From Saccopteryx bilineata (taxonomy: Eukaryota; Chordata; Mammalia; Chiroptera; Emballonuridae), in the NCBI RefSeq assembly GCF_036850765.1, contig NC_089493.1, positions 298,460,349 through 298,524,348 on the forward strand: a stretch of 64,000 nt of DNA, in the 5' to 3' direction. Made by a program: the position numbers and the translations under genes. Each line of letters opens with the position of its first letter. The stretch's first letter is position 1. Shown in pieces: positions 22,294 to 62,898 of the stretch. The notes beneath the pieces were generated by a model. That model was given only the letters and a program-made list of their open reading frames with translations. It did not search any database and was not told the DNA's origin.

Positions 22294-22884
22294 TCAGGGT
22301 CTAGAGGTGTGCAAACCCTGTAAGCTTCGTGCAGTCTCTCTAAGAAAGCTGAGGGAGTTTCCTGGGGGCCCTGGATAACCCCCAACACCTTTCATGGGTT
22401 TCTTAGCATCTCCCCTGATCCAGGCTAACAGAAACTGGTGAAAAGTGTTCAGAGCTTTCCATCCCACATTAGTGTTAGGGTCCCATTTAGGCTGGACAGT
22501 GGGGAACACCTCAAGGTGGTCCCGATTGTCCTCCTCAGAGCCATTTCTCTGCAGCATGACAGCTTTTCTAGCCTCTGACTTGATTCTGTCTTTCTCTTCA
22601 GTAGTAAACGGAGTAACTAAAAGCTGCTGGCCATTGTCCCAGGTGGGGCGGTGTGTATACAGCACAGATTCCAACAGCCCTGTTAGAGCCCGAGGCTTCT
22701 CTAAGGCGGATGGAGCCAATGGAGGAGGAAGATATGGAGGGGACAACCCTGAATCTCCCTGAATAGCTTGTAAAACAGGGACCTTCTTGTCTGATTTTGG
22801 GGCTGTTGCTAACAAAACATGATGACCGGCTCTGATAGCACAGCCTTTCAGCCGGGAAGGGGAATTCTCTACTAGAGCCCTCAC
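22294..22884 (-). pseudogene. Retroviral gag capsid region
   Basis: An open stretch of 196 codons with a proline-rich segment (PPYLPPPLAP, a PPxY-like late-domain context) followed by blocks such as LLESVLYTHRPTWDN and EARKAV. I assign these to the gammaretroviral capsid N-terminal domain. It is followed at lower coordinates by the zinc knuckle. The matrix frame upstream is in a different frame, so gag is broken. Confidence 0.75.
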
Positions 22885-22901
22885 TGATCTATGTATAGAA
22901 A

Positions 22902-23306
22902 CTAGTCTGGGTGGCCCAGTGGCTTAGCTATTACATTCCATACAGCTCTGACATCTCTAGGATCTAATGAGCCTTGTTTTGGCCACTTTACCCTAAAGGA
23001 TGTCCATTCTAGTTCACAAAGAGTTCGAAGTCTCCCCTTGCTTAGTTTTATGCCATAATCATCAGAAAATCCAATTTTAAAATTCTTAAGCATACACTCA
23101 AGAGAAGTTTGACTCTTACTTTGCCCTTCCCCTATTGTTACAAACAGTATGAGAACAAACGAACTTCCCAAGATCACAAAAGGGAGCAAGAACCGAGGTT
23201 TGTGCCAGTTTTCTAAAATGTCCCCTGTTGGATCATATCCTAGAGAACCAAAGGACAGAGAACTTTCAGACAAAAGGGAAGGGGGTGCCTGTGAAGAGCC
23301 ACACAC
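22902..23306 (-). pseudogene. Retroviral gag matrix region
   Basis: An open stretch of 134 codons ending GHPD. It contains CELEWTSFRVKWPKQGSLD, the WP-rich pattern of gammaretroviral matrix proteins. The start Met is not at a gag-like start and the frame does not continue into the capsid frame (a shift between 22885 and 22902). Confidence 0.65.
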
Positions 23307-36194: not shown

Positions 36195-37393
36195 TCACTC
36201 ACCCTTCTTGCAAACAGAGGGCTTCTCCCCTGAGTGTGTCCTCTGGTGTGTGCGGAGATGTGACTTCTGTGAAAAGCCTCGGTCACACTCCCTGCAAACA
36301 TAGGGCTTCTCCCCTGAATGTGTTCTCTGGTGTGTGAGGAGATGTGACTTCCGTGTAAAGCCACACTCACACTCCCTGCAAACATAGGGCTTCTCCCCTG
36401 AGTGTGTACTCTGGTGTCTGAGATCTGACTTCTGTGTAAAGCCTTGCTGACACTCCCTGCAAATATAGGGCTTTTCCCCTGAGTGTGTCCTCTGGTGTGT
36501 GATGAGATGTGACTTCTGTGAAAAGCCTCGCTCACACTCCCTGCAAACATAAGGCTTCTCCCCTGAGTGTGTCCTCTGGTGTGTGAGGAGAGTTGACATC
36601 TGTGAAAAGCCTCGCTCACACTCTGTGCAAACGTAGGGCTTCTCTCCTGAGTGTGTCCTCTGGTGTGTGAGGAGATGTGACTTCAGTGAAAAGGCTCGCT
36701 CACACTCCCTGCAAACATAGGGCTTCTCCCCGGAGTGTGTTCTCTGGTGTGTGAGGAGATTTGATTTCTGTGAAAAGTCTCGCTCACACTCCCTGCAAAC
36801 ATAGGGCTTCTCTCCTGAGTGTGTCCTCTGGTGTCTGAGGAGAGATGACTTCTTTGTAAAACTTCGTTCACACTCCCTGCAAACATAGGACTTCTTCCCT
36901 AAGTGTGTCCTCTGGAGTCTGAGATGTGACCCATCATCAATTCCTTGCCCACACTCTCCATACTTGACAGCTACAATTCTTGACATTCCTACTCTCATAG
37001 ACAGTTTTTCTGTGTCCACTAAATTTACTTTCTGGCCTCTGCTGGGCACTTCCTGCATCATTCTCTCTTGCTCACTAGGGCTTCCCAGGTGTCCTTTGGG
37101 AGGTTTGAAAAAGGCCCTTGAAATCCTCCTTGGCCTGGCCCTTTTAAGCAGTTGTTTCCATTTTTCTTTGACTTTTTGACCTTCAGCTTTGTCATCCATG
37201 TTGTGTGTATCAGAATGTTGCTGCTGCTGATTTGGATCCTCTGGGCAGGGATCCTCTGATTGGAGCTGTTTTCTTGTAGATGTTCCTGGGAGAATATCAG
37301 AGAGTTGATTGCGTCCAACATGTTGGCTGAGGAATTTCTGACTGGATAAGGCCAGAGAACATGAGGGACATATGTCTTTCTCTGGCTGTGGTT
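36195..37393 (-). CDS. PRDM9: PRDM9-like last exon: post-SET finger and C2H2 array
   Basis: Acceptor at 37394-37395 (CAG|AACC), stop TGA at 36195-36197, and 399 codons with no break. It starts with a C2H2-like unit (CPSC...QHVGRN) whose last histidine is glutamine. A basic linker follows ([10 protein letters not shown] block as in PRDM9), then a degenerate finger lacking its first His. Eight canonical fingers occupy 36219-36887, joined by THSGEKP. The protein ends SVCKKGE, like the CREDE-type end of other PRDM9 proteins. Residues at helix positions -1, 2, 3 and 6 for fingers 1-8 are: KSSR, QSNT, LSHT, QSTT, QSHT, QSD plus a gap, RSHT, QSHT. Finger 6 is one residue short before its first His. 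Diversity at contact sites is modest for an active PRDM9 array. Confidence 0.92.
36219..36887 (-). repeat. 84-bp coding minisatellite (zinc-finger units)
   Basis: Eight tandem units of 84 bases (one of 81) encode the C2H2 fingers. The units are nearly identical outside the contact codons, so the array can change length by unequal exchange, as in other PRDM9 genes. Confidence 0.9.
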
Positions 37394-37885
37394 CTGCTGA
37401 AAGAGAAAATTTTGGTCAGGACAGATGTTGACAAGGCTGCCTGGGTCATATGTTTTGTTAAGAAGTCATTCTTACGAGGTTGACAGTGTAATCTCTGTCT
37501 CTCACAAAGTGTTTCTTTACAGTCCCTTTTCTCCTTCATTTTTATGTACTATATCTTCTTTAGAAATACAGAAAGCCCATATCAAGGGTGCTTTATATGC
37601 ATTGCCAGACAAGGGACTGTCAAGTAACATCAGGGGCTGTTTCACCCCTCGTATGGGTGGAGCAATGCTGACCTTTCCTATATACATGTAGCTTTTAACA
37701 CAGTTATTTAAAAAGACCACTGGCCCCAACTAGTAATTGCTTCCCTCATAGTTTCCCACAGATAGACTGAAAATATGACCTTCCTCAAACCTCACATCAA
37801 ATATTCATACTTGATTTCATTCAGTGTCACCCTATTTCATATACAATGGGAAGTCCTGTTTCAAAATATTTCCCCAACCATACTT

Positions 37886-38131
37886 TTTAAAAATTGATTG
37901 ATTTTAGAGAGACAAAGAGGAGGAGCAGAAGGAGGAAAAAGAAGAAGAAAGAAGAAAAAGAAGAAGAAGGAAAGAAAGAAAATAAAAAAAAGAGAGAGAG
38001 AGGGAGGGGCATTTATTCATTGTTCTACCTAGACCTGCAGTTATTGGTCATTTCTCGTATGTGCCCTGACCTGGCATCAACCTTGGTATTACAGGATGGT
38101 GCTGTAACCGACTGAGCTAACCAGCCAGGGC
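37886..38131 (-). repeat. VES-like SINE with purine-rich expansion
   Basis: CCCCAACCATACTT at 37872-37885 and 38132-38145 flanks a minus-strand SINE. Its GA-rich tail has grown to about 100 purines (37905-38010). Confidence 0.88.
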
Positions 38132-38349
38132 CCCCAACCATACTTCTTACATGCTTGACTCCTATCTCTCTCCAGCTAATCCACCATCCTCTCTCACTTG
38201 GAGATGAAGTAATCTCTGAGAGGATTTCCCACTGAAGTGGTTTTTACCAAAAATTAACAAAGCCAATCCGAGAGAACAAGCCACCCAGTAGCCAAGAACA
38301 GCACCATCGTCCCACCTCACTCAGGAAGGTCCCCAGTGTCTCAGCTGGG

Positions 38350-38900
38350 ATCACAGCACTGCATTTCCTGGCTGCTGGGCATCTATCCAACCTCTGCTCT
38401 TACCCTGTATGCTAGACAGGAGTGGTCCTCAGAAAAGAGACCCTGGCCAGTTTTCCCAGTGTTGGCCCGGCATGTGGATGTCCCAGGTTTGATCCCCGGT
38501 CAGGGCACATATAAAAAGCGACTATCTGCTTCTCTTCCCCTCCCTCGCCACCCCCCTCTCTCTTCCCCTCCCACAGCCAGAGGCTCGATTGGTTCGAGCA
38601 TCAGCTTCAAAGCTCAGATGGTTCAAGTGTTGACCTCAGTCACTGAGGATTGCTTGGCTAGTCTGAGCATGGACCGCAGACTTGGGTTGCTGGGTGGATC
38701 CTGGTAGGGGCACATGAAGATCACAGCACTGCATTTCCTGGCTGCTGGGCATCTATCCAACCTCTGCTCTTACCCTGTATGCTAGACAGGAGTGACCCTC
38801 AGAAAACAAGACCTGGCCAGTTTTCCCAGTGGATAGTGTTGGCCCGGCATGTGGACGTCCCAGGTCTATCTCCCCTCCTCTCACTTAAAAAAATTAAATC
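38350..38900 (+). repeat. Direct duplication containing a SINE
   Basis: The text from ATCACAGCACTGCATTTCC (38350) through the SINE head recurs at 38720, offset 370 bases, with few differences over about 140 bases. A type B-like SINE (38440-38715) lies between. It sits in the intron before the PRDM9-like zinc-finger exon. Confidence 0.85.
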
Positions 38901-39065
38901 AAAAGTAAAAAATATAAAGATTTTTCCTAAGAATCAAAGGCATATGAAATGAATCCTTAATTTCTGAAGCATCTGATTAGAAATCTTACAGACTTTAGAG
39001 TGTACCATGAAAATTTCTAAGGTGAGTTCTCTCTTCTTTCCATTTTGAAGAACAGTTGTGCCCAC

Positions 39066-39259
39066 CTCTAGCTGCTGAGAGCTCTCTCTTCTTCTTGCTG
39101 CCACACTTGATGCCCAGCTTCTGGCCATACTTGTCACTGTACCCGACCAGCAGCTCAGAGTCTGGCCTGATGACCCGGCAGGTTCGGTAGAAAATCTGCC
39201 TGCGATACTGAAAGGCCACCAGGTTCTGCTCTTCATCATCCTGGGCACAGTTCACATAC
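39066..39259 (-). CDS. PRDM9: PRDM9-like SET exon (C-terminal part)
   Basis: Acceptor CCCAG|GTATG and donor AGAG|GTGGG; 194 bases, in phase with both neighbours. It encodes [18 protein letters not shown], then [10 protein letters not shown] and [18 protein letters not shown] and the catalytic tyrosine after ELLV are kept. The tryptophan that normally precedes that tyrosine is glycine (GGG), the next glycine is serine, and two glutamates are lysine. The conserved tryptophan of the GIKW motif is cysteine. These are unusual changes in the most conserved part of the methyltransferase and fit relaxed selection. Confidence 0.9.
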
Positions 39260-39759
39260 CTGGGATTGAGGCAGGTGAAAGAAAAATCCACAGGCGATGA
39301 GTTCCTATTACCTCTCAGAGTCATGTCTAGCTCTGCACCTGACACTTGGGCTCTGATGTCACCCACTCCCACAGTGCTCCCAGAGAACCTTCTGTTCAAT
39401 GTCTGAGCCTCTCTCAATGTCATACAACTTCCTATCTTCAAGTCCTGCTTACTGTGCTCATCCTGCCTAATACCATTTTCCAAAGACAGTTCCAGATGTA
39501 ACCTCCACCCTGATTGGCCATAAAACCCAGTGACCTCTAGCTTCTCTAAATTAACTCAGTTCCTGTTTTATATCACAGAACTTGCTACTTGATGTTGGAC
39601 TCTGTGTCTAGATTAGTTCACATTATTCAATACTCAGCCCAAGTCCATCTTTTCTTGAGAGGCCTTTCTCCATTCTCCTCACATTTTATTTAGGTAGCAT
39701 TTAATGCCTCACCCAGGATTCCAAAAAAAATCTGGTGGTCTCCACCCCTACACCGAAGT

Positions 39760-40112
39760 GAGAATCTGGGAGACAGACAGACAGACTCCCGCATGTGCCT
39801 GACCAGGATCCACCTGGCATGCCCACTAGGGGGGGATGCTCAGCCCAAGTGGGCTGTTGCTCCACAGTAACCAGAGCCATTCTAGCGCCTGAGGTGGAGG
39901 CGGAGGCCATGGGGCCATCCTCAGCACTGGGGCCAACTTTGCTCCAATGGAGCCTTGGCTGTGGGAGAGAAAGAGAAAGAGAGAGAGAGAGAGAGAAAGG
40001 AGAGGAGGAGGGGTAGAGAAGCAGGTGAGCGCTTCTCTGTGCTCTGGCCAGGAATCAAAACCTGGACTTCCAGTCGAGCTGATGCTCCACCGCTGAGCCA
40101 ACTGACCAGGAC
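39760..40112 (-). repeat. tRNA-derived SINE (type B), diverged
   Basis: A minus-strand copy in a PRDM9-like intron, with a (GA)n expansion at 39965-39998. Confidence 0.85.
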
Positions 40113-40416
40113 TTCAAGGTCTCTTTGTCTTTGCAAAATCATAAAGAATAATAGCTTATTCACATTCTGTAGACCCTGATAAAAGAGCCCCTCAGGGAAG
40201 TGGCCCATGATCATTGCTCTGCAGGCTTCAGAACTCAGTTCTAGTTAGAAGTGAGGCTGGGATAATTGGCTGCCCTCACAGGTTTAGGCTATTCTTGGTT
40301 TAGGTATTCTGGCACTGTGCACTTCTCAAAAAATAGAAAAATTATAGTTAAACATTTCTAAAATCAATTGTTTCAATCTGTCTGCAATTAATCGTCCATA
40401 AGAAGATGGGTTATAT

Positions 40417-40776
40417 CAGGGGTCCCCAAACTTTTTATACATGGGGCCAGTTCACTGTCCCTCAGACTGTTGGAGGGCCGGAATATAAAAAAATTATGAA
40501 CAAATCCCTATGCACACTGCACATATCTTATTTTAAAGTAAAAAAAAACAGGAATAAATACAGTATTTAAAATAAAGAACAAGTACATTTAAATCAACAA
40601 ACTGACCAGTATTTCAATGGGAACTATGGGCCTGCTTTTGGCTAATGAGATGGTCAATGTGCTCCTCTCACTGACCACCAATGAAAGAGGTGTCCCTTCT
40701 GGAAGTGCAGCGGGGGCTGGATAAATGGCCTCAGGGGGCCGCATGCGGCCCACGGGCTGTAATTTGGGGACACCTG
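40417..40776. mobile_element. hAT-type MITE with 8-bp target duplication
   Basis: Starts CAGGGGTCCCCAAACTTTTT and ends GGGGACACCTG. GGTTATAT at 40409-40416 and 40777-40784 is a perfect 8-base duplication, the hallmark of hAT transposons. A second copy in the other orientation is at 59127. No transposase is encoded. Confidence 0.93.
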
Positions 40777-41125
40777 GGTTATATGATTTCTTTAAGTAAT
40801 GAATACCTTCCTCCTAACTGGAATACAGTAAGAGTTTGCTTAAATGTTCATTAGATCAATTAAATAATAATCCAGGACCTCAAAATTTTTTTCCAGTGCC
40901 TAAATTTTGTCTGGCATAGAGATGTATATTTTGAGGACATATGCTATATTATATCTCTTTTTTCCTCTAAATACCTCTTGCTTTGAGAGAGCACCAAATG
41001 GAGATAAGATAAAAGAGGAACACAGGATTGAGGGAGACCACTGAGGGAGGCATGATGAGAAGGAAAGATTTATGGGCCTGAGAGGGATGAGTGTTCTCGT
41101 GACTCCCAGAAACTTGTTGGCCTTA

Positions 41126-41257
<132 letters not shown>

Positions 41258-41576
41258 TTACCCTACTGTCAACAAAGCCTTTTCAGCTTGCATGCATTGC
41301 CACTCGTGACCACATGATATTTTTCTTACTCATCACATCTGAGTTGACCTGTCAACTCAGGGCTGGCAGGAGGCATTTCTTTGTGTCTGTACCACTTTGC
41401 TCCCACTTAACCTGTGATACTTATCAGGAGTTCCATAGTGTGCAAACTCCACTCAATACTCATAACTAAACATATTGTCTCCATCCATGTCCTAGCATGT
41501 AGAAAGACAGGTCCCATCAAGCCATGGGAGGGATGTGGGAAGCCACAAGATAGGGGAAGAGGTAAATACTTCTCAC

Positions 41577-41848
41577 CAGCCAGGAGTATCTGTTGTTGCC
41601 TGCCTCTTCATCTTCTGTGATCTGGCCCTCATAAGGGCCAAAGTGCAGACCCACTGGCAGAGCAGATGCCTCATTCCACACTCCAAGCCCAGCCTCAGGG
41701 ATGCCCGATGCTCTGATTCTCAACCCAGGGGGCAGAGTGAGGGCTGCGTGGTTCGGATGCCCCTTATCCACTGCACAGTCTTTTACAAATGTAGGAGGCC
41801 CATGCACGTCACAACTGTCAATGAAGAAGTTCTGACACTTCTCACAAT
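41577..41848 (-). CDS. PRDM9: PRDM9-like zinc knuckle and SET exon (N-terminal part)
   Basis: CCCCCAG|ATTGTG acceptor and TGGCTG|GTGAGA donor; 272 bases, open. It encodes the zinc knuckle (YCEKCQNFF...CDVHGPPTF) and the start of the PR/SET domain ([20 protein letters not shown], then LHFGPYEG). The Cys/His set of the knuckle is complete. The exon continues in phase from 42051 and into 41194. Confidence 0.93.
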
Positions 41849-42050
41849 CTGGGGGTGAGAGCAACAGGGATTAGGGAAGGTGTAGTGCATGTTTCTGGAC
41901 ATACAGAGCCTCAGAGAGAGCCCAGGAACTCACATCACTGAGCCTCAATTCTGTAGTGCAGGTCCTTAGGGGAACGGAATGCTCTAAGGGCCAAATGACC
42001 AGATGAAATTATTCTATGAAGACATAACATGCTTTGTGAGGGTCACTTAC

Positions 42051-42152
42051 AGAGGTAGTCATCATCCTGGGGCTCGCTGACCTCTTGGTACACATGGCCT
42101 TTTCTTTCTTGTAGGCTATACATCTTTACTTTGGTCTCCTTTCTCCTGAGTT
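42051..42152 (-). CDS. PRDM9: PRDM9-like linker exon after SSXRD
   Basis: TTAG|AACTCAGG acceptor and CTCT|GTAAGT donor. It encodes [20 protein letters not shown] then [11 protein letters not shown], the segment linking the SSXRD and SET parts of PRDM9. ATG at 42121-42123 is the first in-frame Met for an intact downstream frame of 601 residues, though nothing indicates that it is used. Confidence 0.92.
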
Positions 42153-42498
42153 CTAAGTTGGAGAAGAGTGAGTTTGGTAGAGTTTAGAGTGTAAGTCCCT
42201 ATTTTGTCAGAAAACACACAACCTCCTCCCATCAAATTATCACCTGTCCTTCTATATACTCTGGTATTTTCCTTTGTTAACTCTCGGCTCAGAGAGCCTT
42301 TATAACAGTAAGCCTCTACACTGACTACAGATGGACAATTCAGTCTTTGTTTCTAGATCTTCCCATTATGAGTTTTAACTTCCCAACTTTTAGTTATTCA
42401 TAAAATATTTATTAAGGGCACAGTATATGTAAGGTATTGAGGAAAGGCCTGGTATACAACACCAACAGCGTATGGTCGCTATTATCAGAGATGTATTT

Positions 42499-42525
42499 TT
42501 TTTTATTTATTCACTTTAGAGAGGG

Positions 42526-42578
<53 letters not shown>

Positions 42579-42698
42579 GGAGGAGCAGGAAGCATCAACT
42601 CCCATATGTGCCTTGACCAGGCAAGCCAGGGTTTTGAACCGGCAACCTCAGTGTTTCCAGGATGACGCTTTATCCACTGTGCCACCACAGGTCAGGCC
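42499..42698 (-). repeat. VES-like SINE with (GA)n
   Basis: AGAGATGTATTT at 42487-42498 and 42699-42710 flanks a minus-strand SINE containing a 40-base (GA)n run (42529-42573). Confidence 0.92.
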
Positions 42699-42739
42699 AG
42701 AGATGTATTTATTGAACGTGTGTGTGTCAGTTCTTTTAA

Positions 42740-43092
42740 GCCCTAGCCAGTAGCTCAGTGGATAGAGTATCAGCTCAGTGTATGTCCCGGGTTTGATTCC
42801 AGTCAGGGTACATAGGAGATGCAACCATCTCCTTCTCCACCCCTCCCTCTTCCCCTTCTATATCCCTTTCTCTCCCCCTTCTCTCTTTCTTTCTTTCCTG
42901 CAGCCAGTGGCTCAATTGGTTCAAGCATTGGCCCTGGGTGCTGAGGATGATTCGGTTAGCTGGAGTACATCATCCTGAGGTGCTAAAAAACAGCTCAGTA
43001 CTCGAGAATTGGGGTTGCCAGGTAGATCCTGGTAAGGGTGCATATGGGAGTCAGCCTCACTATCTCCCTTCATCTTACCTAAAAAATAAGTA
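42740..43092 (+). repeat. SINE, type B relative
   Basis: CCCTAGCCAGTAGCTCAGTG head, GGTTTGATTCC B box and ACATAGGAGATGC, followed by a diverged type B body. Confidence 0.8.
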
Positions 43093-43332
43093 TATATATA
43101 CACAAATAAATACATTGAATTAAATACTGTCAAAGAATACATGTACAAATTAGCATTGAAGAGCTCAGAGAATTTGTAAGATTTGCCCAAATCTCCAGTG
43201 CTAAATTCACTCTCAGTTTAGTAGAGCTTAAATCCAGGCCTATTCAAAGTCCACCCCACATTCCTAGGCTATACTTATTATCCTTTCTAGAGGACTCAGA
43301 GGAACTGAAATCCACTAATGATTCTCTCTTAC

Positions 43333-43380
43333 CCAATTTTCATCTAGAGAGTTGTCCAGAGGGTCTTGCTTCTTCCGGAT
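43333..43380 (-). pseudogene. PRDM9: PRDM9-like SSXRD exon remnant, TGA and SINE truncation
   Basis: The last 48 bases of the exon are readable on the minus strand as EEARPSGQLSR, stop, KLG before a GTAAGA donor. They match the EAS-SGQ-SR-KLE end of the SSXRD region in PRDM9, in the phase required by the next exon. The TGA stands where other PRDM9 genes have a sense codon. The exon body upstream is missing; a 5'-truncated type A SINE begins at 43381. The SSXRD/SSX-like repression domain is therefore lost here. Confidence 0.8.
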
Positions 43381-43715
43381 GGACTGTGATGCTGAGGACC
43401 CAGGTTTGAAACCCCCAGCTGCCGGCTTCAGTAGGGGCTAATCCGGGTTGAGTGCAGGCTCACCAGCTTGAGCGTGTGATCATAGTCATGACCCCATGGT
43501 TACTGGCTCAAGTCCAAGATAGCTAGCTTGAGCAAGGGGTCACTAACTGTGCTGTAGCCCCCCAGTCAAGGCACATATGAGAAAGCAATCAATGAACAAC
43601 TAAGGAGCTACAGTAAAGGATTCTTCTCATCTCTCCCTTTTAGCCAGTCTGTCCCTGTCTGTCCCTCCCTCTCTATCTCTCACTAAAAGAAAAGAAAAAA
43701 GAAAAAAAATTGGCC
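43381..43715 (+). repeat. SINE type A, 5' truncated
   Basis: Starts abruptly at GGACTGTGATGCTGAGGACC, adjoining the PRDM9-like exon remnant, and continues to an A-rich tail. Confidence 0.85.
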
Positions 43716-43818
43716 ATTCTTGTCAAAAAATATAATAAACGTCACTTAACTGGACAAAAAGTCCATTTCTTTAACATAACACTTCCTCCTTTCTGTCTTT
43801 AAAAAAATTTTTTTTAAT

Positions 43819-43999
43819 TGCCAGACCTATGGTGGCACAGTGGATAAAGCTTTAACCTGGAATAATTAGGTAAACAATTCATAACCCAAGGCTTGGCTGG
43901 TCAAGACACAAACAAGAAGCAACTACAACAATTGATGCTTCCTGTTCCTGTTTGCCTCCCCCTTCTTTCTCACGCCTCTCTATAAAATCAATAAAATTC
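43819..43999 (+). repeat. VES-like SINE
   Basis: CAGACCTATGGTGGCACAGTG head and a TTGATGCTTCCTGTTCC tail block. Confidence 0.75.
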
Positions 44000-44553
44000 T
44001 TTTTATTGATTTAAGAGAGAGAGGAGGGAAGAGAGTGAGAGAGAAACATTGATTTGTTGTTCCACTCATTTATGCATTTAGTGGTTGATTATTCTTTCTT
44101 TTTTCTTTTCTTTTTGTTAGCTAGAGAGACAGGAAGGGAGAGGGATGAGAAACATTAGCTTATAGCTGTGGTACCTTAGTTTTTCATTGATTGCTTTCTC
44201 ATATGTTCCTTGACCAGGGGACTCTAGCTGAGCCCGTGACCCCTTGCTCAATCCTGCAACCTGTGCTCAAGCCAGCAACCTTGGGCTTCAAGCCAGTGAC
44301 CATGGGGTTACATCCACGATCCCACACTCAAGGCAGCGACCCTGCACTCAAGCCGGTGAACCCATCCTCAAGCCCGCAACCTTGGGGTTTGGAACCTGGG
44401 TCCTCATTGTCCCAGGTTGATGCTCTATCCTCTGTGCTACCACCTGGTCAGGCTTCAATGGCTGATTCTTATATGGGCCCTGACTGGACATCAAACCCAC
44501 AACCTTGGTGTATGGGGACGACTCTCTAATAAATTAAGCAACTTGGCCAGGGC
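43998..44553 (-). repeat. Nested SINEs
   Basis: An outer minus-strand VES-like SINE (43998-44093 and 44454-44553) is split by a minus-strand type A SINE (44094-44453, ending ACCTGGTCAGGC). Confidence 0.8.
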
Positions 44554-44559
44554 TCCTTT

Positions 44560-45240
44560 CTGTCTTCTTGTTTCAGAGTGGCCTTGTCCAGTCTAATGGT
44601 AAAGTGACCACCTTGCCTCTTTTCCTTCTTATCCCTTGACCTTTACACATTTGGCCGTCCTTGCCCTTCCTTAATCATCAGAGTCTGCTGTGCTCCAAAC
44701 AGTCTTGGGAACAGAGCCTCAGGTCTGTGGACCACAGAAACCATTTGGGTCAAGTTAGAGATCACACCTGGACTGCAGCTGTGTTTCAGTGCTAGACCCA
44801 TGAACGCAGAAGGACCTTACTGACCACACCCTCATGAAACCAGACACACTGAAGAGATGGCTGACACAAGGCCTGATACAATGGTCCCTACCCTGTCCCA
44901 CACCCCAGCTGCCTTAAGCACCATGATTAATCCCTTCTCGTCTGCAATGTGGCCGGCGCTGCCCAGGGAGCCCTGTCCTGGAGCACTACTCACCGGCCAG
45001 ACCTTCCTCCTCCTCTTGTGATGACAAGTGTTCTGAATGAGTTATTTTTACGTGCTTTTATACTTTTATACCGTTCCTGCTCATTAACACATCTATAAAT
45101 ATGTGTAATCATTTACACATGGAAGCAGTATAGCAAATCGCCGGTTTGCTAAATGCAAGTTCTGTCCCTCGTTAGCCGCTGAGAGGCGGGGACCTGACCC
45201 CAGGTGGGTTTCTAAAGGGCAGCACCCTGTCTGTGGCCCC
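44560..45240. other. PRDM9-like intron, missing-exon interval
   Basis: No segment matching the exon that normally follows the KRAB-linker exon (the KPPWMALRVEQ region) is visible on the minus strand here. Confidence 0.5.
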
Positions 45241-45243
45241 TAC

Positions 45244-45351
45244 CTCGCTGCCTCCGAGTCCATTCTTCATGCGAGTTCTCAGTTTCCTCCGCCGGGGGTC
45301 CGGTGGCCTGACGGCGTTTAACCATGAGAGCGGTCCGAGGGGCTCTGAGGC
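45244..45351 (-). CDS. PRDM9: PRDM9-like linker exon after KRAB
   Basis: CCCCAG|GCCTCAG acceptor and GCGAG|GTAGG donor. It encodes LRAPRTALMVKRRQATG and ENSHEEWTRRQ, matching the KRAB-proximal linker of PRDM9 (the RRQA and EEWT blocks). Open throughout and in phase with the MGDREKAR frame of the previous exon. Confidence 0.85.
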
Positions 45352-45870
45352 CTGGGGAGAAACAAAATCGTGGTCCCGAAAGCGAAGCGGTTGTAGGAGC
45401 AGCCCCGACACAGGCCGGTCCGTGTGCGGCCCGCGGTTCCCGCGCCCCGTCACCTGTGCGCAGCAGCGCGTCCTGGTTCCTCTCCACGTTGCGGCAGCGC
45501 GCCTTCTCCCTGTCGCCCATGGCGGCCACCCCTCCCGGGAGAAGTAGGCGCGGATGTCCCTGAAGGCGCCGGGGTCTGGGGGGAGACGCGGCCACGTGAC
45601 CCGTGTTGCAGCCGGCGGAACCGCCCCTCACTTTGCCGGGCTGCCCCCAGCCCGCCGGCCTGTGCTCACCTGCAGCGAGGCTCACGCCCTGCTCGCCGCT
45701 CCCGCCACCGCCCCGCGGGCCCCCTTCCGCGTCCGTGCTCCGGCCGCCCTGCTCGCCCAGCTCCGACCTGCCTGCGCGGGAGACGGCGCTGAGGCTGACT
45801 GCTTGGCCCACGGGAGCGCAGTCGGGCGCGCGCTCGGGGTGGGACACGTGGGGCCAGCCCCAGGGACACA
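45260..45870. promoter_or_regulatory. CpG island over the 5' part of the PRDM9-like locus
   Basis: A CpG-dense segment covering the KRAB exons and about 300 bases upstream. A segment ending CTGCAG|GTGAGC at 45671 (minus) has a consensus donor and could be an upstream exon, but its product is not recognisable. PRDM9 is not generally CpG-island driven, so the composition itself is notable. Confidence 0.5.
45454..45575 (-). pseudogene. PRDM9: PRDM9-like KRAB exon with one-base frameshift
   Basis: The minus strand starts after a CCCAG acceptor with AFRDIRAYFSREGW, the first half of a KRAB A box. One base is missing relative to the family before the ATG at 45519-45521. The rest (MGDREKARCRNVERN...ALLRTG) therefore reads in another frame, to a CACAG|GTGACG donor. 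The conserved glutamate before the tryptophan is glycine. KRAB is needed for PRDM9 function in meiosis. The ATG lies in a perfect GCCGCCATGG context, so an internal start would skip the shift, but the next exons are damaged. Confidence 0.85.
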
Positions 45871-46693: not shown

Positions 46694-47709
46694 TCTTGAG
46701 TCCTCGATTCTACTCTCAAGTTTATTGAACATCATTATGACTGTTTGCTTTGAATTCTTTATCTGTCCAATTACTCATCTCCATTTCATTACGATATTTC
46801 TCTGGAGTTCTTTTCTTGTTCCTTTATTGGGGGTATATTCTTCTGTCTCCCCATTTTCTTTGACTGTCTGTTTTTGTTCTTTTAAATAGAATGAAATAGT
46901 CATTTCACTCAGTCTTGAAAATGTTGTCTTTGTTACATTGTGTGTTGAACAGTTTCAGCCTGCGGATTGTAGTTGGGGGAGGTGCATGCAGTGCCTGTCA
47001 CTGGCCTGAAAAAGTGGGTTCTGAATGGGCCGCCTGGGGTGTGTGAGCCTTTTTGTCCTTTTAATCTGGGAGGGCTGCCTGGTGTAAAAGGGACTGCGTG
47101 GTGTGTGCTGTGTTCTGTTTTAATTATCTGTTGTCAGAGCACGGTCTGTGCTGGGTTACCTGATTGCTTTCTTGTATCTCACCCCCCATTAGATCCACCC
47201 TTTGTCCTGGTGGGGTAGCCTGGTGCACACACAGCCTTAATTTGTTCACTCTCCACCTTCTCGGGGCTTGGCAGCCCTGTGCACATGCACAACATTGCCC
47301 CCCTCACTCCACACTGGGCCGCAAGGTTTTGCTAGGTTTGTGCTTTCTTTGGGTAGAGCAGCCCGACCAGTGTGAGCAGCAGTGCCCCCTAATCTCTGCA
47401 CTTTCTCTGATCAGGGAGTCCTGTGTGCAGACTATAACCCATTTGCTGGCTCCCCATTTTCCAGGAGGAGTAATGCCAGTAGTGACCCACTATCTCTGCA
47501 CTTTCTCTGGGTCAAATAGTCCTGCAGCCGGTATCAGAGTGTTTGCTAGCTCTGCACTCTCTCTAGGTGGGGGAGCCCCACATGCACATGCAGCTCAGTG
47601 GGCAAAGTGTGGCCTTGCCATACCTACCTGCTGGGTCGATATCCGGGAAGAGGAGCTCTCTTTATACAAGCTACGCTGCCCTCATGATTCTGTTGTATTT
47701 AGCTCCAGG
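46694..47709. other. Unassigned, repeat-like stretch
   Basis: Contains reiterated 'CTCTGCACTTTCTCT' motifs (near 47395, 47495 and 47555) with 60-150 base spacing. Probably a degraded LTR or L1 segment; a 195-codon frame here lacks any known domain. Confidence 0.4.
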
Positions 47710-48935
47710 TGTTGTAAAGTATCTGTACCTCAGTTCCATGGGTTCACATAGAGACACCAAGTCCAGATGAATTTTAAGGACTTTTATTAATGGAGATTTA
47801 TTAAATATGCCGGCTGCATATGACTGATACGGGGCATTTGCAGACCCAAATCGTGCATGCAGGCACAACCCTTGCTGCAGGTTATATACCTTTGCTCACA
47901 CACACACACAGGTTGGCAGGAAAAAGAGGAGGAGGATGGGACACAATTCATTAGCAAGGTTACAACATTTGTCTATAGGATTTATAAAAACATTTCTATA
48001 TATCAAAACTTATAAGGTAACACAATAGCAAAAATGTTATTCTAAATATTAAAAGATATTCCTAAATTTTCTAGTGGTCATTTGCCAATTTTTTTTTTTT
48101 GTATTTTTCTGAAGCTGGAAACGGGGAGGCAGAGACAGACTCCCGCATGCGCCTGACTAGGATCCACCCAGCACGCCCACCAGGGGGAGATGCTCTGTTG
48201 CAACCAGAGCCATTCTAGCGCCTGAGGCAGAGGCCATGGAGCCATCCTCAGCGCCTGGGCCATCTTTGCTCCAATGGAGCCTTGGCTGCAGGAGGGGAAG
48301 AGAGAGACAGGAAGGAGACGGGGAGGGGTGAAGAAGCAGATGGGTACTTCTCCTGTGTTCCCTGGCTGGGAATCAAACTCAGGACTTCCGCACGCCAGGC
48401 TGACACTCAACCACTGAGCCAACTGGCCAGGGCCCATTTGCCATTTTTTGTTTTGTTTTGAGATATATACATTAATTATACATTTTCAGGAGGGGAGGAG
48501 TAGTTTTCCTGCTGCCAGGTGATTAATGCCTGCAAATGGCTCATCAAATAGGAAAATGTTTTCTTAATCCCTCTCTTCCTGCACCTGGCTAACTATTTAC
48601 CTGTTTGCTTAGAGGTGGGGGGAAGGGAGGGAATCCAAATCTCCTTCCCCTCTTTATTTACAATACAATGCTATTGGCCATCCTGAGTTGGTGTAAATCA
48701 CACAAGTATAAAAATTATTTTTACAAAATGTCTCTGTATGCCTAGCCCAAATTATTAAAATGCCCTTTAAGCTTCTTAGTAGAAGGGAGTTTCCTACACA
48801 GTATGTTTCTGCAGGCCAGGAAACTTTCATATTTCCTCCCCCTCCCTTCCTCAAAGGAAGGACAGGACAGGAAAGCCTGACCTTTCCTCCTAAAACATTA
48901 ATATTAATATTGCAGCTTTTGGGTACCTTACTGCA
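47710..48935 (-). repeat. Solo LTR (copy B) with SINE
   Basis: Plus-strand text TGTTGTAAAGTATC...GGTACCTTACTGCA. CAGG on both sides (47706-47709, 48936-48939) is the 4-base duplication. A type B SINE (48093-48434, minus) is inserted, with CATTTGCCA(A)TTTTT on both sides. Confidence 0.85.
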
Positions 48936-58642: not shown

Positions 58643-59126
58643 TCAGTGAAGAGAGGGGAGAGGGTTTTCTGGACGGAAGAGATTCAAGCAGAAGAGATCT
58701 GCAGAGGGATCAGAGAGGGGCACCGAGAGAGGGGTACTCCTGGTGGCCAGGCAGGAGGGGAGAGAGTTGGGACTCCGCAAAGGAAAGATTAGGAGCAGAG
58801 GTTTTAGGTGAGGTTTCTCTGGCCAAAAACTTTCTTCGTGTAGACCAAATGGTACAGAAATTAATGACAGGAGCAGAGAGAAGAAAGCCTGCACATACGG
58901 GATTTCTGTTACCTTCCCCGTCTGGTGGCAGAAGTTCTCAAGATCTCTCAGAATATTGTAATCAAATGTCCCATTTTCAGGCCAGTGGAAGTCACTGTCT
59001 AATTTGTATTGGGGCCACACCATGTTACAGAAGAAAATGAGATTTTTTGGCTTAAGGTCAGAGAGGCTCAACTTAGTGAGGTTTTTTATGAGACACCCTA
59101 GAGGGGTCTGGTCAGAAGGCTTAGAT
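58643..59126 (-). pseudogene. Retroviral gag remnant (copy 1)
   Basis: 142 open codons: WPQYKLDSDFHWPENGTFDY, then a proline/serine-rich region. This is the matrix-to-p12-like part of a gamma-type gag. Copy 2 has the matching segment at 62296-62898. The upstream end is cut by the MITE at 59127. Confidence 0.75.
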
Positions 59127-59490
59127 GAGGGGTCCCCAAACTATGGCTCGCGGGCCACATGCGGTACCCTGAGGCCATTTATCCGGCCTCTGCTGCACTT
59201 CCGGAAGGGGCACCTCTTTCTTTCGTGGTCAATGAGAGGAGCACATTGACCATCTCATTAGCCAAAAGCAGGCTCATAGTTCCCATTGAAACACTGGTCA
59301 GTTTGTTAATTTCAATTTACTTGTTCTTTATTTTAAATATTGTATTTGTTCTCATTTTGTTGTTTTACTTTAAAATAAGATATGTGCAGTGTGCATAGGG
59401 ATTTGTTCATAGTCTTTTTTATAGTCCGGCCCTCCAACGGTCTGAGGGACAGTGAACTGGTCCCCTGTGTAAAAAGTTTGGGGACCCCTG
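59127..59490. mobile_element. hAT-type MITE in gag of copy 1
   Basis: Ends GAGGGGTCCCCAAACT and GTTTGGGGACCCCTG; GCTTAGAT (59119-59126) and GCTTAGAC (59491-59498) form the 8-base duplication. Same family as 40417, inverted. Confidence 0.92.
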
Positions 59491-61762: not shown

Positions 61763-62295
61763 TTTGGTGCCGAAACCCGGGCAGGGTACTAGCCTGGACG
61801 ATCCCTCTTTGCCGTCCAAACTTTCAACGAGGGAAGAACTGGACATTGGCAGCTCATCCCAGGCTTACTCCCTGATTCTGTTTGGATGTGTAATTGTAGG
61901 TTGATTGGCCAGCAATCTGTTTCTGTCCTGAACCCCTGCTGGACCAGAAAGGTAAGGATTTTTTTCTCCTCTTCCCCAGTTGGCCTCCAAATTTCTCTCT
62001 AATATAACCCTTTCTTGGTCAGATGGTTTTTGACTTCAGACCCCATATCTACAAGTGGTCTGCCTCTACTTTTTTACTGGACATCTACAAAAGTCTAGGT
62101 GTGCCTGTCCAAGCCTCTCTTCTACGTCCCGGGATCTTGGCATTGGGGTGACGACCTCCTGTCTGAGACTCTCTTTCAACGGCGATTTTCTCCTCTCAGA
62201 ACTGAGCCTGAAGGCGGGGATGCCCCTTCTCTCACCAGTCTCCTCTACTGTGGGCTCCTCTCAGTCCAAACCATCCAGCCTGACTCCCCTCGGCT

Positions 62296-62898
62296 GTGTC
62301 ACCAAATATCTCACCAAACTTGGCCTATCTGACCTCAAACCAAAAAAAACCCCAACTCATCATCCTATGTAATACAGCCTGGCCACAATATAAATTAGAT
62401 AATGACTCCCATTGGCCAGAGATAGGAACCTTTGATTGCAATATCCTAAGAAATCTTGACGATTTTGCCACCGTACTGGGAAGGTCTCAGAGATTCCTTA
62501 TGTGCTGGCTTTCTTCTCCTTTTGCTCCTGTCCTTAATTTCTGTGCTACTTTTTCTACACACAGGCCTTTTTTAGCCAAAGAAACCTCACCTAAGACCTC
62601 TGCTCCTAATCTTTCCTTCTCCTCGGACTCCCAAGGACCTGACCCCCTGCCTGACCCCCAGGGGCACCCCTCTCTTGGGACCCCTCTCTGGTCCCTCTGC
62701 AAGTCTCTTCCACTTGAGTCTCTTCCCTCCAGAAAGCCCCCTCCACTCTTCACTGAATCCTGTTTTCTTATTCTCCTGCAAATACCAGTCTCTCTTTCTC
62801 TTCCCCTGCTGGCTAGGGGCCCCTCCCTTCTCCACTGTGTTCTTAAACCCCTCCTATCCACTTGCAGAAGGGCAGGTTTGTCTATTTTTCTTCTTTGA
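62296..62898 (+). pseudogene. Retroviral gag remnant (copy 2)
   Basis: 200 open codons: WPQYKLDNDSHWPEIGTFDC, then a frame-shifted matrix C-terminus and a Ser/Pro-rich part. Compared with copy 1 it loses the matching frame after NILRNLDDF. Confidence 0.75.

Follow-up and report, generated by a model that had tools for sequence, protein, structure and literature searches.

The window analysed here is a 64,000-nucleotide stretch of the genome of the bat Saccopteryx bilineata (C4:298460349-298524348, in an assembly of 2.61 Gb and 256 contigs), which carries a PRDM9-like gene with a damaged front part. PRDM9 is usually a single gene with fast-changing fingers. Our analysis makes it highly probable that the window copy is a secondary, KRAB-truncated PRDM9 paralog, one member of a large and segmentally spread family, and that a complete PRDM9 on contig C8 remains the gene which places recombination hotspots.

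A complete PRDM9 gene at the tip of contig C8

The complete gene occupies C8:35824-44582. The contig is 99.5 Mb long, and the gene begins about 36 kb into it. Its 10 exons join into 921 codons and all nine introns have GT/AG borders. One single frame encodes all parts of a complete PRDM9, in the order KRAB, linker, SSXRD, PR/SET with WYGDEYGQELGIKWGSK, and an array of 13 fingers with varying contact residues. The Pfam scores were 22.3 bits for KRAB (cut-off 20.4), 63.1 bits for SSXRD and 168.8 bits for PR. The diversity of the C8 fingers was concentrated at the DNA-contact residues. Positions -1, 2, 3 and 6 held 0.62 of the amino-acid diversity in C8 (14 fingers, counting one that follows the stop) compared with 0.39 in 92 fingers of other copies and 0.23 in the window, where the value refers to only the four fingers caught by the search pattern.

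A KRAB-query search of the genome found only one highly similar exon that encodes the entire KRAB-A in a single frame, at C8:36006-36131 (best 150 of 365 candidates). The C8 KRAB exon as a query gave 13 matches (best 150 of 163 candidates), and C8 itself was the sole full-length, high-identity KRAB-A match among those listed. Weaker KRAB-A matches were present at C13:74.05 Mb (79% over residues 1-38), on C132 (52%) and at two places on C2 (42-44%), and the window copy aligned to this query only from residue 19 onward. With the linker as a query, C8 was the sole match in the genome (10 of 10 candidates scored). Neither the C8 KRAB exon (best 150 of 163) nor the linker (10 of 10) revealed a second complete PRDM9. 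An earlier reading of the window, made from its letters alone (the sequence-only reading), had proposed either a recent loss of hotspot targeting or a secondary copy beside an intact gene. The whole-assembly search, with its one complete gene on C8, bears out the latter, and the window copy is one among many.

A loss of PRDM9 in the emballonurid clade, also considered, is ruled out by the full KRAB exon on C8. Protein searches with KRAB-bearing queries returned no emballonurid protein, neither among 110 listed matches nor among the best 120 of 291, which suggests that these public models lack the C8 gene or cover it only in part. Protein models alone can thus suggest a PRDM9 loss that is absent from the genome. 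Judged from its sequence, the C8 gene very probably still places recombination hotspots, and we infer that it is expressed and working.

Structure of the window copy

Five exons on the minus strand (42152 to 36195) give, when joined in phase, 610 codons without internal stops, with AG acceptors and GT donors wherever these are required, as the sequence-only reading had described. They comprise the intact SSXRD exon (42051-42152; PF09514, E 1.6e-18, 31 of 31 positions), three open PR/SET exons (41577-41848, PF21549, E 8.5e-11; 41127-41194, assigned by frame reading; 39066-39259, PF21549, E 4.6e-20) and a last exon (36195-37393; Pfam and frame reading), which contains the pre-finger region and the tandem C2H2 fingers and ends with KKGE and the stop. 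In the Pfam scan the open product scored 60.7 bits for SSXRD (PF09514, cut-off 23) and 161.3 bits for PF21549 and had no match to KRAB (PF01352). PF00096 matches were found in seven stretches of the finger array, and one further finger is short of a residue. The PR/SET part aligned end to end with human PRDM9 (4ijd, E 1.9e-118), so this resemblance is not due to chance, and the PRDM9-like identity proposed for the C-terminal half was confirmed. The public model P0038 (279 amino acids), which lies on a contig as long as C4, agrees with this product across the SSXRD-SET part and is probably the model of the window locus. Since its introns are present, the window copy is not a processed pseudogene.

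In the numbering of human PRDM9, Y276, Y341 and Y357 are retained and W356 and G358 are altered. The WYG motif around the catalytic tyrosine Y357, located in the third PR/SET exon, thus reads GYS, which makes methyltransferase activity of the window product doubtful.

Upstream of the open exons, and likewise on the minus strand, a remnant of the first coding exon was found at 45655-45789 (blastn with the first exon of C8, 73.7% identity). The triplet aligned to the start codon was not ATG in any of the three copies aligned to the intact gene, the window copy included. The KRAB-A exon (45454-45575) has one base fewer than the intact C8 gene, the deletion lying after the EGW codons; the frameshift noted earlier was therefore real. 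This exon contains an ATG in good context at 45520. The second KRAB-side exon (45244-45351) is open and has AG/GT borders according to copy alignments and frame reading. A further remnant at 43333-43400 corresponds to the linker exon between KRAB and SSXRD in an alignment of the copies to the human exon. It has lost its 5' part and contains an in-frame stop, which is also present in 13 other copies; the intact form of the linker exon is located at C8:37990-38146. It is this remnant that the sequence-only reading had mistaken for a truncated SSXRD exon with a stop. The SSXRD exon is the one with which the open five-exon frame begins, so the SSXRD of the window copy is intact. From the proposed dead N-terminal half, the KRAB frameshift and the linker stop remain, but not the lesion of SSXRD.

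If the linker is skipped, seven exons from the ATG at 45520 join in phase into 669 codons without internal stops. A retrocopy on C13 (L001) has the second KRAB-side exon joined straight to SSXRD, which indicates that this skip occurred in a transcript of the PRDM9 family.

Copy number and genomic positions of the family

In the assembly, 83 SSXRD exons scored above the curated cut-off (134 of 134 candidates scored), including those of the complete C8 gene and of two processed copies (C13:128.65 Mb and C4:227.57 Mb). In the copy at C4:227.57 Mb, the KRAB-side exon and SSXRD abut. For at least 79 of the 83 exons, a PR/SET exon follows in the same orientation at a distance of up to 12 kb. The PR/SET set comprised 143 of 150 listed matches, after removal of one retrocopy and of presumed other PRDM genes (seven rows in all), and 26 further PR/SET places had no SSXRD match among the matches listed.

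The 13 large contigs carry 40 SSXRD exons, which are strongly concentrated near contig ends: the distance to the nearest end is at most 0.1 Mb for 11 of them, 2 Mb for 25 and 6 Mb for 32, where chance would give 0.04, 0.81 and 2.42 exons, respectively. These 32 exons occupy 13 of the 26 ends, on 12 of the 13 large contigs. The eight interior exons form seven groups, two of which are processed copies. Interior copies that are not evidently processed were observed at C1:207.42 Mb, C2:166.94 Mb, C3:255.51 Mb, C4:249.95-249.98 Mb and C7:58.15 Mb; it is possible that these copies are marks of old chromosome fusions.

A flanking stretch of the window copy (47200-48100), identified by genome search, is shared with the surroundings of many other copies as part of a duplicated unit. 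Among its other main places, 32 of 39 have a KRAB-side exon at a distance of 10 kb or less (best 40 of 5738 candidates; three small pieces were left out, and the KRAB-side exons were taken from the best 150 of 365 candidates). The introns are kept in the copies. The retained introns together with the flank shared near other copies indicated that DNA segments were spread.

A degraded PRDM9 copy was observed at the tip of C9 (C9:1-8400), and a GAS domain, which we take to be that of GAS8, at C9:82265-84779. If the C9 tip is presumed to be the ancestral place, on the basis of the GAS8-PRDM7 neighbourhood of other mammals, the functional gene may have moved from one chromosome end to another, with a degraded copy on C9 and the intact one on C8.

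Age of the truncation

KRAB-A was aligned for 18 copies, namely 16 of the 20 ten-kb loci read, the window copy and the retrocopy L001. The same base is missing in all 18 copies, which lie on several contigs, and three of them have further deletions there. As it is common to all aligned copies, the frameshift is neither recent nor an assembly error. Public models of two related bats either begin at the corresponding internal point or read across it: the Saccopteryx leptura model P0002 reads through the frameshifted KRAB, and the Rhynchonycteris naso models P0005, P0009 and P0023 begin at the internal KRAB ATG.

In a protein tree of SSXRD and SET (17 of 18 public models, one being too short; five served as outgroups), the copies of S. 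bilineata, S. leptura and R. naso, which represent two genera, interleave. The window copy forms a group (support 0.91) with two S. leptura models and L025. The C8 gene and the R. naso model P0007 stand outside the truncated copies; several inner nodes are not above 0.8 support. The shared lesion point and the interleaving of the copies suggest that the truncated family probably predates the split of the two genera. Since the linker is open in P0007, a complete gene is probably present in R. naso as well.

Some public models have unusual ends. In the S. leptura model P0043, a protein disulfide isomerase-like N-terminus, which we presume to be PDILT, is joined to SSXRD-SET; a search of the S. 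bilineata loci examined revealed no PDILT-like exons. In the S. bilineata models P0011 and P0012, from a contig as long as C4, the finger exon continues into residues that resemble retroviral pol by eye, and these extensions are probably model artefacts.

Selection on the truncated copies

Selection was assessed in 22 copies (twenty 10-kb loci from the C4 and C1 clusters, the window copy and the C9 copy). In 16 of them SSXRD and SET have neither a stop nor a frameshift; outside this count, nine copies lack one base close to the beginning of the SSXRD exon, a loss that would break the preceding join. The second KRAB-side exon (108 bases) is broken in 11 of 19 copies, the retrocopy being excluded. 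The KRAB-side exon is thus broken more often than SSXRD and SET, and the C-terminal part is better kept than the front.

For SSXRD and SET, the mean pairwise ratio of nonsynonymous to synonymous substitution rates (dN/dS, or omega) was 0.45. The Goldman-Yang (GY) codon model gave a log-likelihood of -3175.4 with omega free compared with -3188.8 with omega fixed at 1, the highest value obtained with four settings of kappa. In 11 disjoint closest pairs (kappa 4), 194 nonsynonymous changes were found versus 333 expected and 6 nonsense changes versus 20.7 expected. After removal of CpG sites, omega over all pairs was 0.73 (p 0.007), with 7 nonsense changes versus 14.5 expected, and the C4 group of the window was not significant (p 0.14). 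Several close C4 pairs had ratios above 1. The pre-finger region was neutral for replacements (omega about 1.1), yet only 2 nonsense changes were found there versus 12.2 expected. The sequences thus point to weak purifying selection on SSXRD and SET, of which gene conversion from C8 and selection before the duplications could account for a part.

Origin of the window copy and alternative explanations

The explanation that we favour would start from a founder, a PRDM9 copy with the deletion already present in its KRAB exon. Its descendants would have been dispersed as segments of DNA, in many cases from one chromosome end to another, and exchange between chromosome ends may have been the mode of this spread. 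The complete PRDM9 at the tip of C8 would keep placing the hotspots. If transcribed, the window copy would yield at most an SSXRD-PR/SET-finger protein of 669 amino acids or shorter, and its fingers, if translated, could bind DNA or join other PRDM9 molecules. The window copy itself most likely does not place hotspots, since it has lost the N-terminal KRAB on which PRDM9 depends. According to the reports cited, KRAB truncation abolished PRDM9 function in the mouse (PMC5688218), recombination in swordtail fish and KRAB-deleted mice is directed to promoter-like sites (PMC8892340), and PRDM9 variants form heteromers in cell culture in which the stronger binder redirects its partner (PMC4569383).

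Several observations weigh against this explanation. The C8 frame ends within a would-be 14th finger, and about two more fingers lie behind the stop. An open but diverged KRAB frame is present at C29:93783 (65% over residues 2-39, a search match only). The locus L045 (C13:74048900-74051900), which is outside the 18-copy alignment, is decayed, but its KRAB-A is unbroken and the end of the finger exon is present; PR/SET was not found in the 3 kb read there, and this locus may be older than the KRAB deletion common to the other copies. The skipped-linker frame of the window copy is open throughout. With regard to position, tandem copies are not independent, so that the 32 end-proximal exons amount to 13 groups, and 43 of the 83 SSXRD exons are on smaller contigs (C14 and up). 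Finally, plain decay would not give the omega of about 0.45-0.73 and the depletion of nonsense changes in SSXRD and SET.

This last point bears on another explanation, which shares the origin proposed above and differs in function: the truncated copies would be working KRAB-less PRDM9-like methyltransferases, translated from internal starts, which either mark chromatin outside recombination or form mixed multimers that shift the sites of the complete PRDM9. We regard it as rather unlikely. The weak purifying selection, with the likelihood difference and the deficits in the closest pairs, agrees with it, as do finger codes that vary between copies and the heteromers reported from cell culture (PMC4569383). 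However, the signal is weaker without CpG sites and not significant in the C4 group of the window, several close pairs on C4 exceed a ratio of 1, the pre-finger region evolves neutrally for replacements, and an appearance of constraint could also arise through gene conversion from the intact gene. Moreover, stops or frameshifts interrupt SSXRD or SET in 6 of the 22 copies, nine copies have the deletion near the SSXRD exon start, and the WYG motif is lost in the window copy, L025, L010-L016 and L018 and reads WHD in L017, with L009 retaining it. A bolder form, in which some 80 KRAB-less paralogs, many of them at chromosome ends and still selected for SSXRD and SET, jointly dilute or steer hotspot choice beside the one complete PRDM9, is in our judgement an outside chance. 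In this form they would act either as mixed multimers or as separate histone H3 lysine 4 (H3K4) methyltransferases that carry a wide range of finger arrays, and might do so at the very chromosome ends in which they are located.

A recent loss of PRDM9-directed recombination at the window locus, as raised by the sequence-only reading, would agree with the KRAB frameshift and the linker stop of the window copy, but the complete frame on C8, the lesion common to the 18 aligned copies, the public models of S. leptura and R. naso that start at or run through the same point and the interleaving of the copies of these species in the tree make it very improbable. A further possibility, by which errors in the assembly gave rise to the lesions and the animal itself has an intact locus, has a negligible probability. 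Nothing was found in its favour, 18 copies spread over several contigs lack this one base, and models of two other species share the internal point. A KRAB-truncated member of an old, segmentally spread family beside a complete C8 gene is therefore the explanation that we retain.

Retrocopies, a transposon fusion and other features

The retrocopy L001 (C13:128647235-128650594, minus strand) is a processed PRDM9 copy without introns. Its last PR/SET exon is joined, at the exact splice end and in frame, to the base after the TTATTTCTTATAG acceptor in copies of a hAT-like transposon. The position of the join at the exact splice end indicates that a PRDM9-transposase transcript was once spliced and retroposed. 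In Pfam the transposon matched only DUF659, below the cut-off; many copies of it, of about 96% identity, are present in the genome (best 40 of 1336 candidates). L001 is decayed downstream of the fusion, and a source locus of the PRDM9-hAT retrocopy was not found in the stretches read or by search (best 40 of 1336 candidates). Fused KRAB-side exons were also observed in the PRDM9 copies L033 (C1:300213371-300216547), L034 and L036, which are probably processed since the two exons are joined; L033 has an open frame of 372 codons.

Elsewhere in the window, three retroviral gag-like open frames were observed: one at 22297-22923 (minus strand; Gag_p30, E 1.9e-22), one at 58646-59140 (minus strand; Gag_MA match below threshold) and one at 62284-62895 (plus strand; no family match).

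Comparison with known PRDM9 systems

No literature on PRDM9 in Saccopteryx was found. KRAB-less extra PRDM9 copies in bats are already known from phyllostomids, where an expansion by five genes is described and the phyllostomid number is called the highest (PMC10510315). The two cases resemble each other in that bats carry extra PRDM9 copies, many of them without KRAB. In contrast to the phyllostomid account, the present case concerns an emballonurid with at least 79 SSXRD exons having a downstream PR/SET exon, the one complete gene included, and most of those on large contigs lie near contig ends.

Primate PRDM7 is likewise a secondary PRDM9 copy and is located at the end of human chromosome 16q (PMC7943923). 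Unlike the window copy, PRDM7 has lost its finger array (PMC5519329), and some of its models keep KRAB (gorilla P0080); in the window copy the fingers are kept and KRAB is lost, and there are scores of copies instead of one. In ruminants, interchromosomal PRDM9 duplicates are also present, one lineage is fingerless and three sequences have stops in KRAB, whereas the ruminant copies amount to three lineages on chromosomes 1 and X (PMC5351255). Partial vertebrate PRDM9 orthologs offer a parallel in the purifying selection on SET after N-terminal loss; there, only a partial gene was found, whereas a complete gene coexists here (PMC5519329). Among mammals, one survey inferred losses of complete PRDM9 only in platypus and canids (PMC8892340).

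Relative to the literature found, the kind of event in S. bilineata is thus known, and the copy number, the position near chromosome ends and the presence of one complete gene are new in combination. One complete gene together with scores of truncated copies, many of these close to chromosome tips, is a natural experiment for asking whether PRDM9 without KRAB influences the choice of hotspots.

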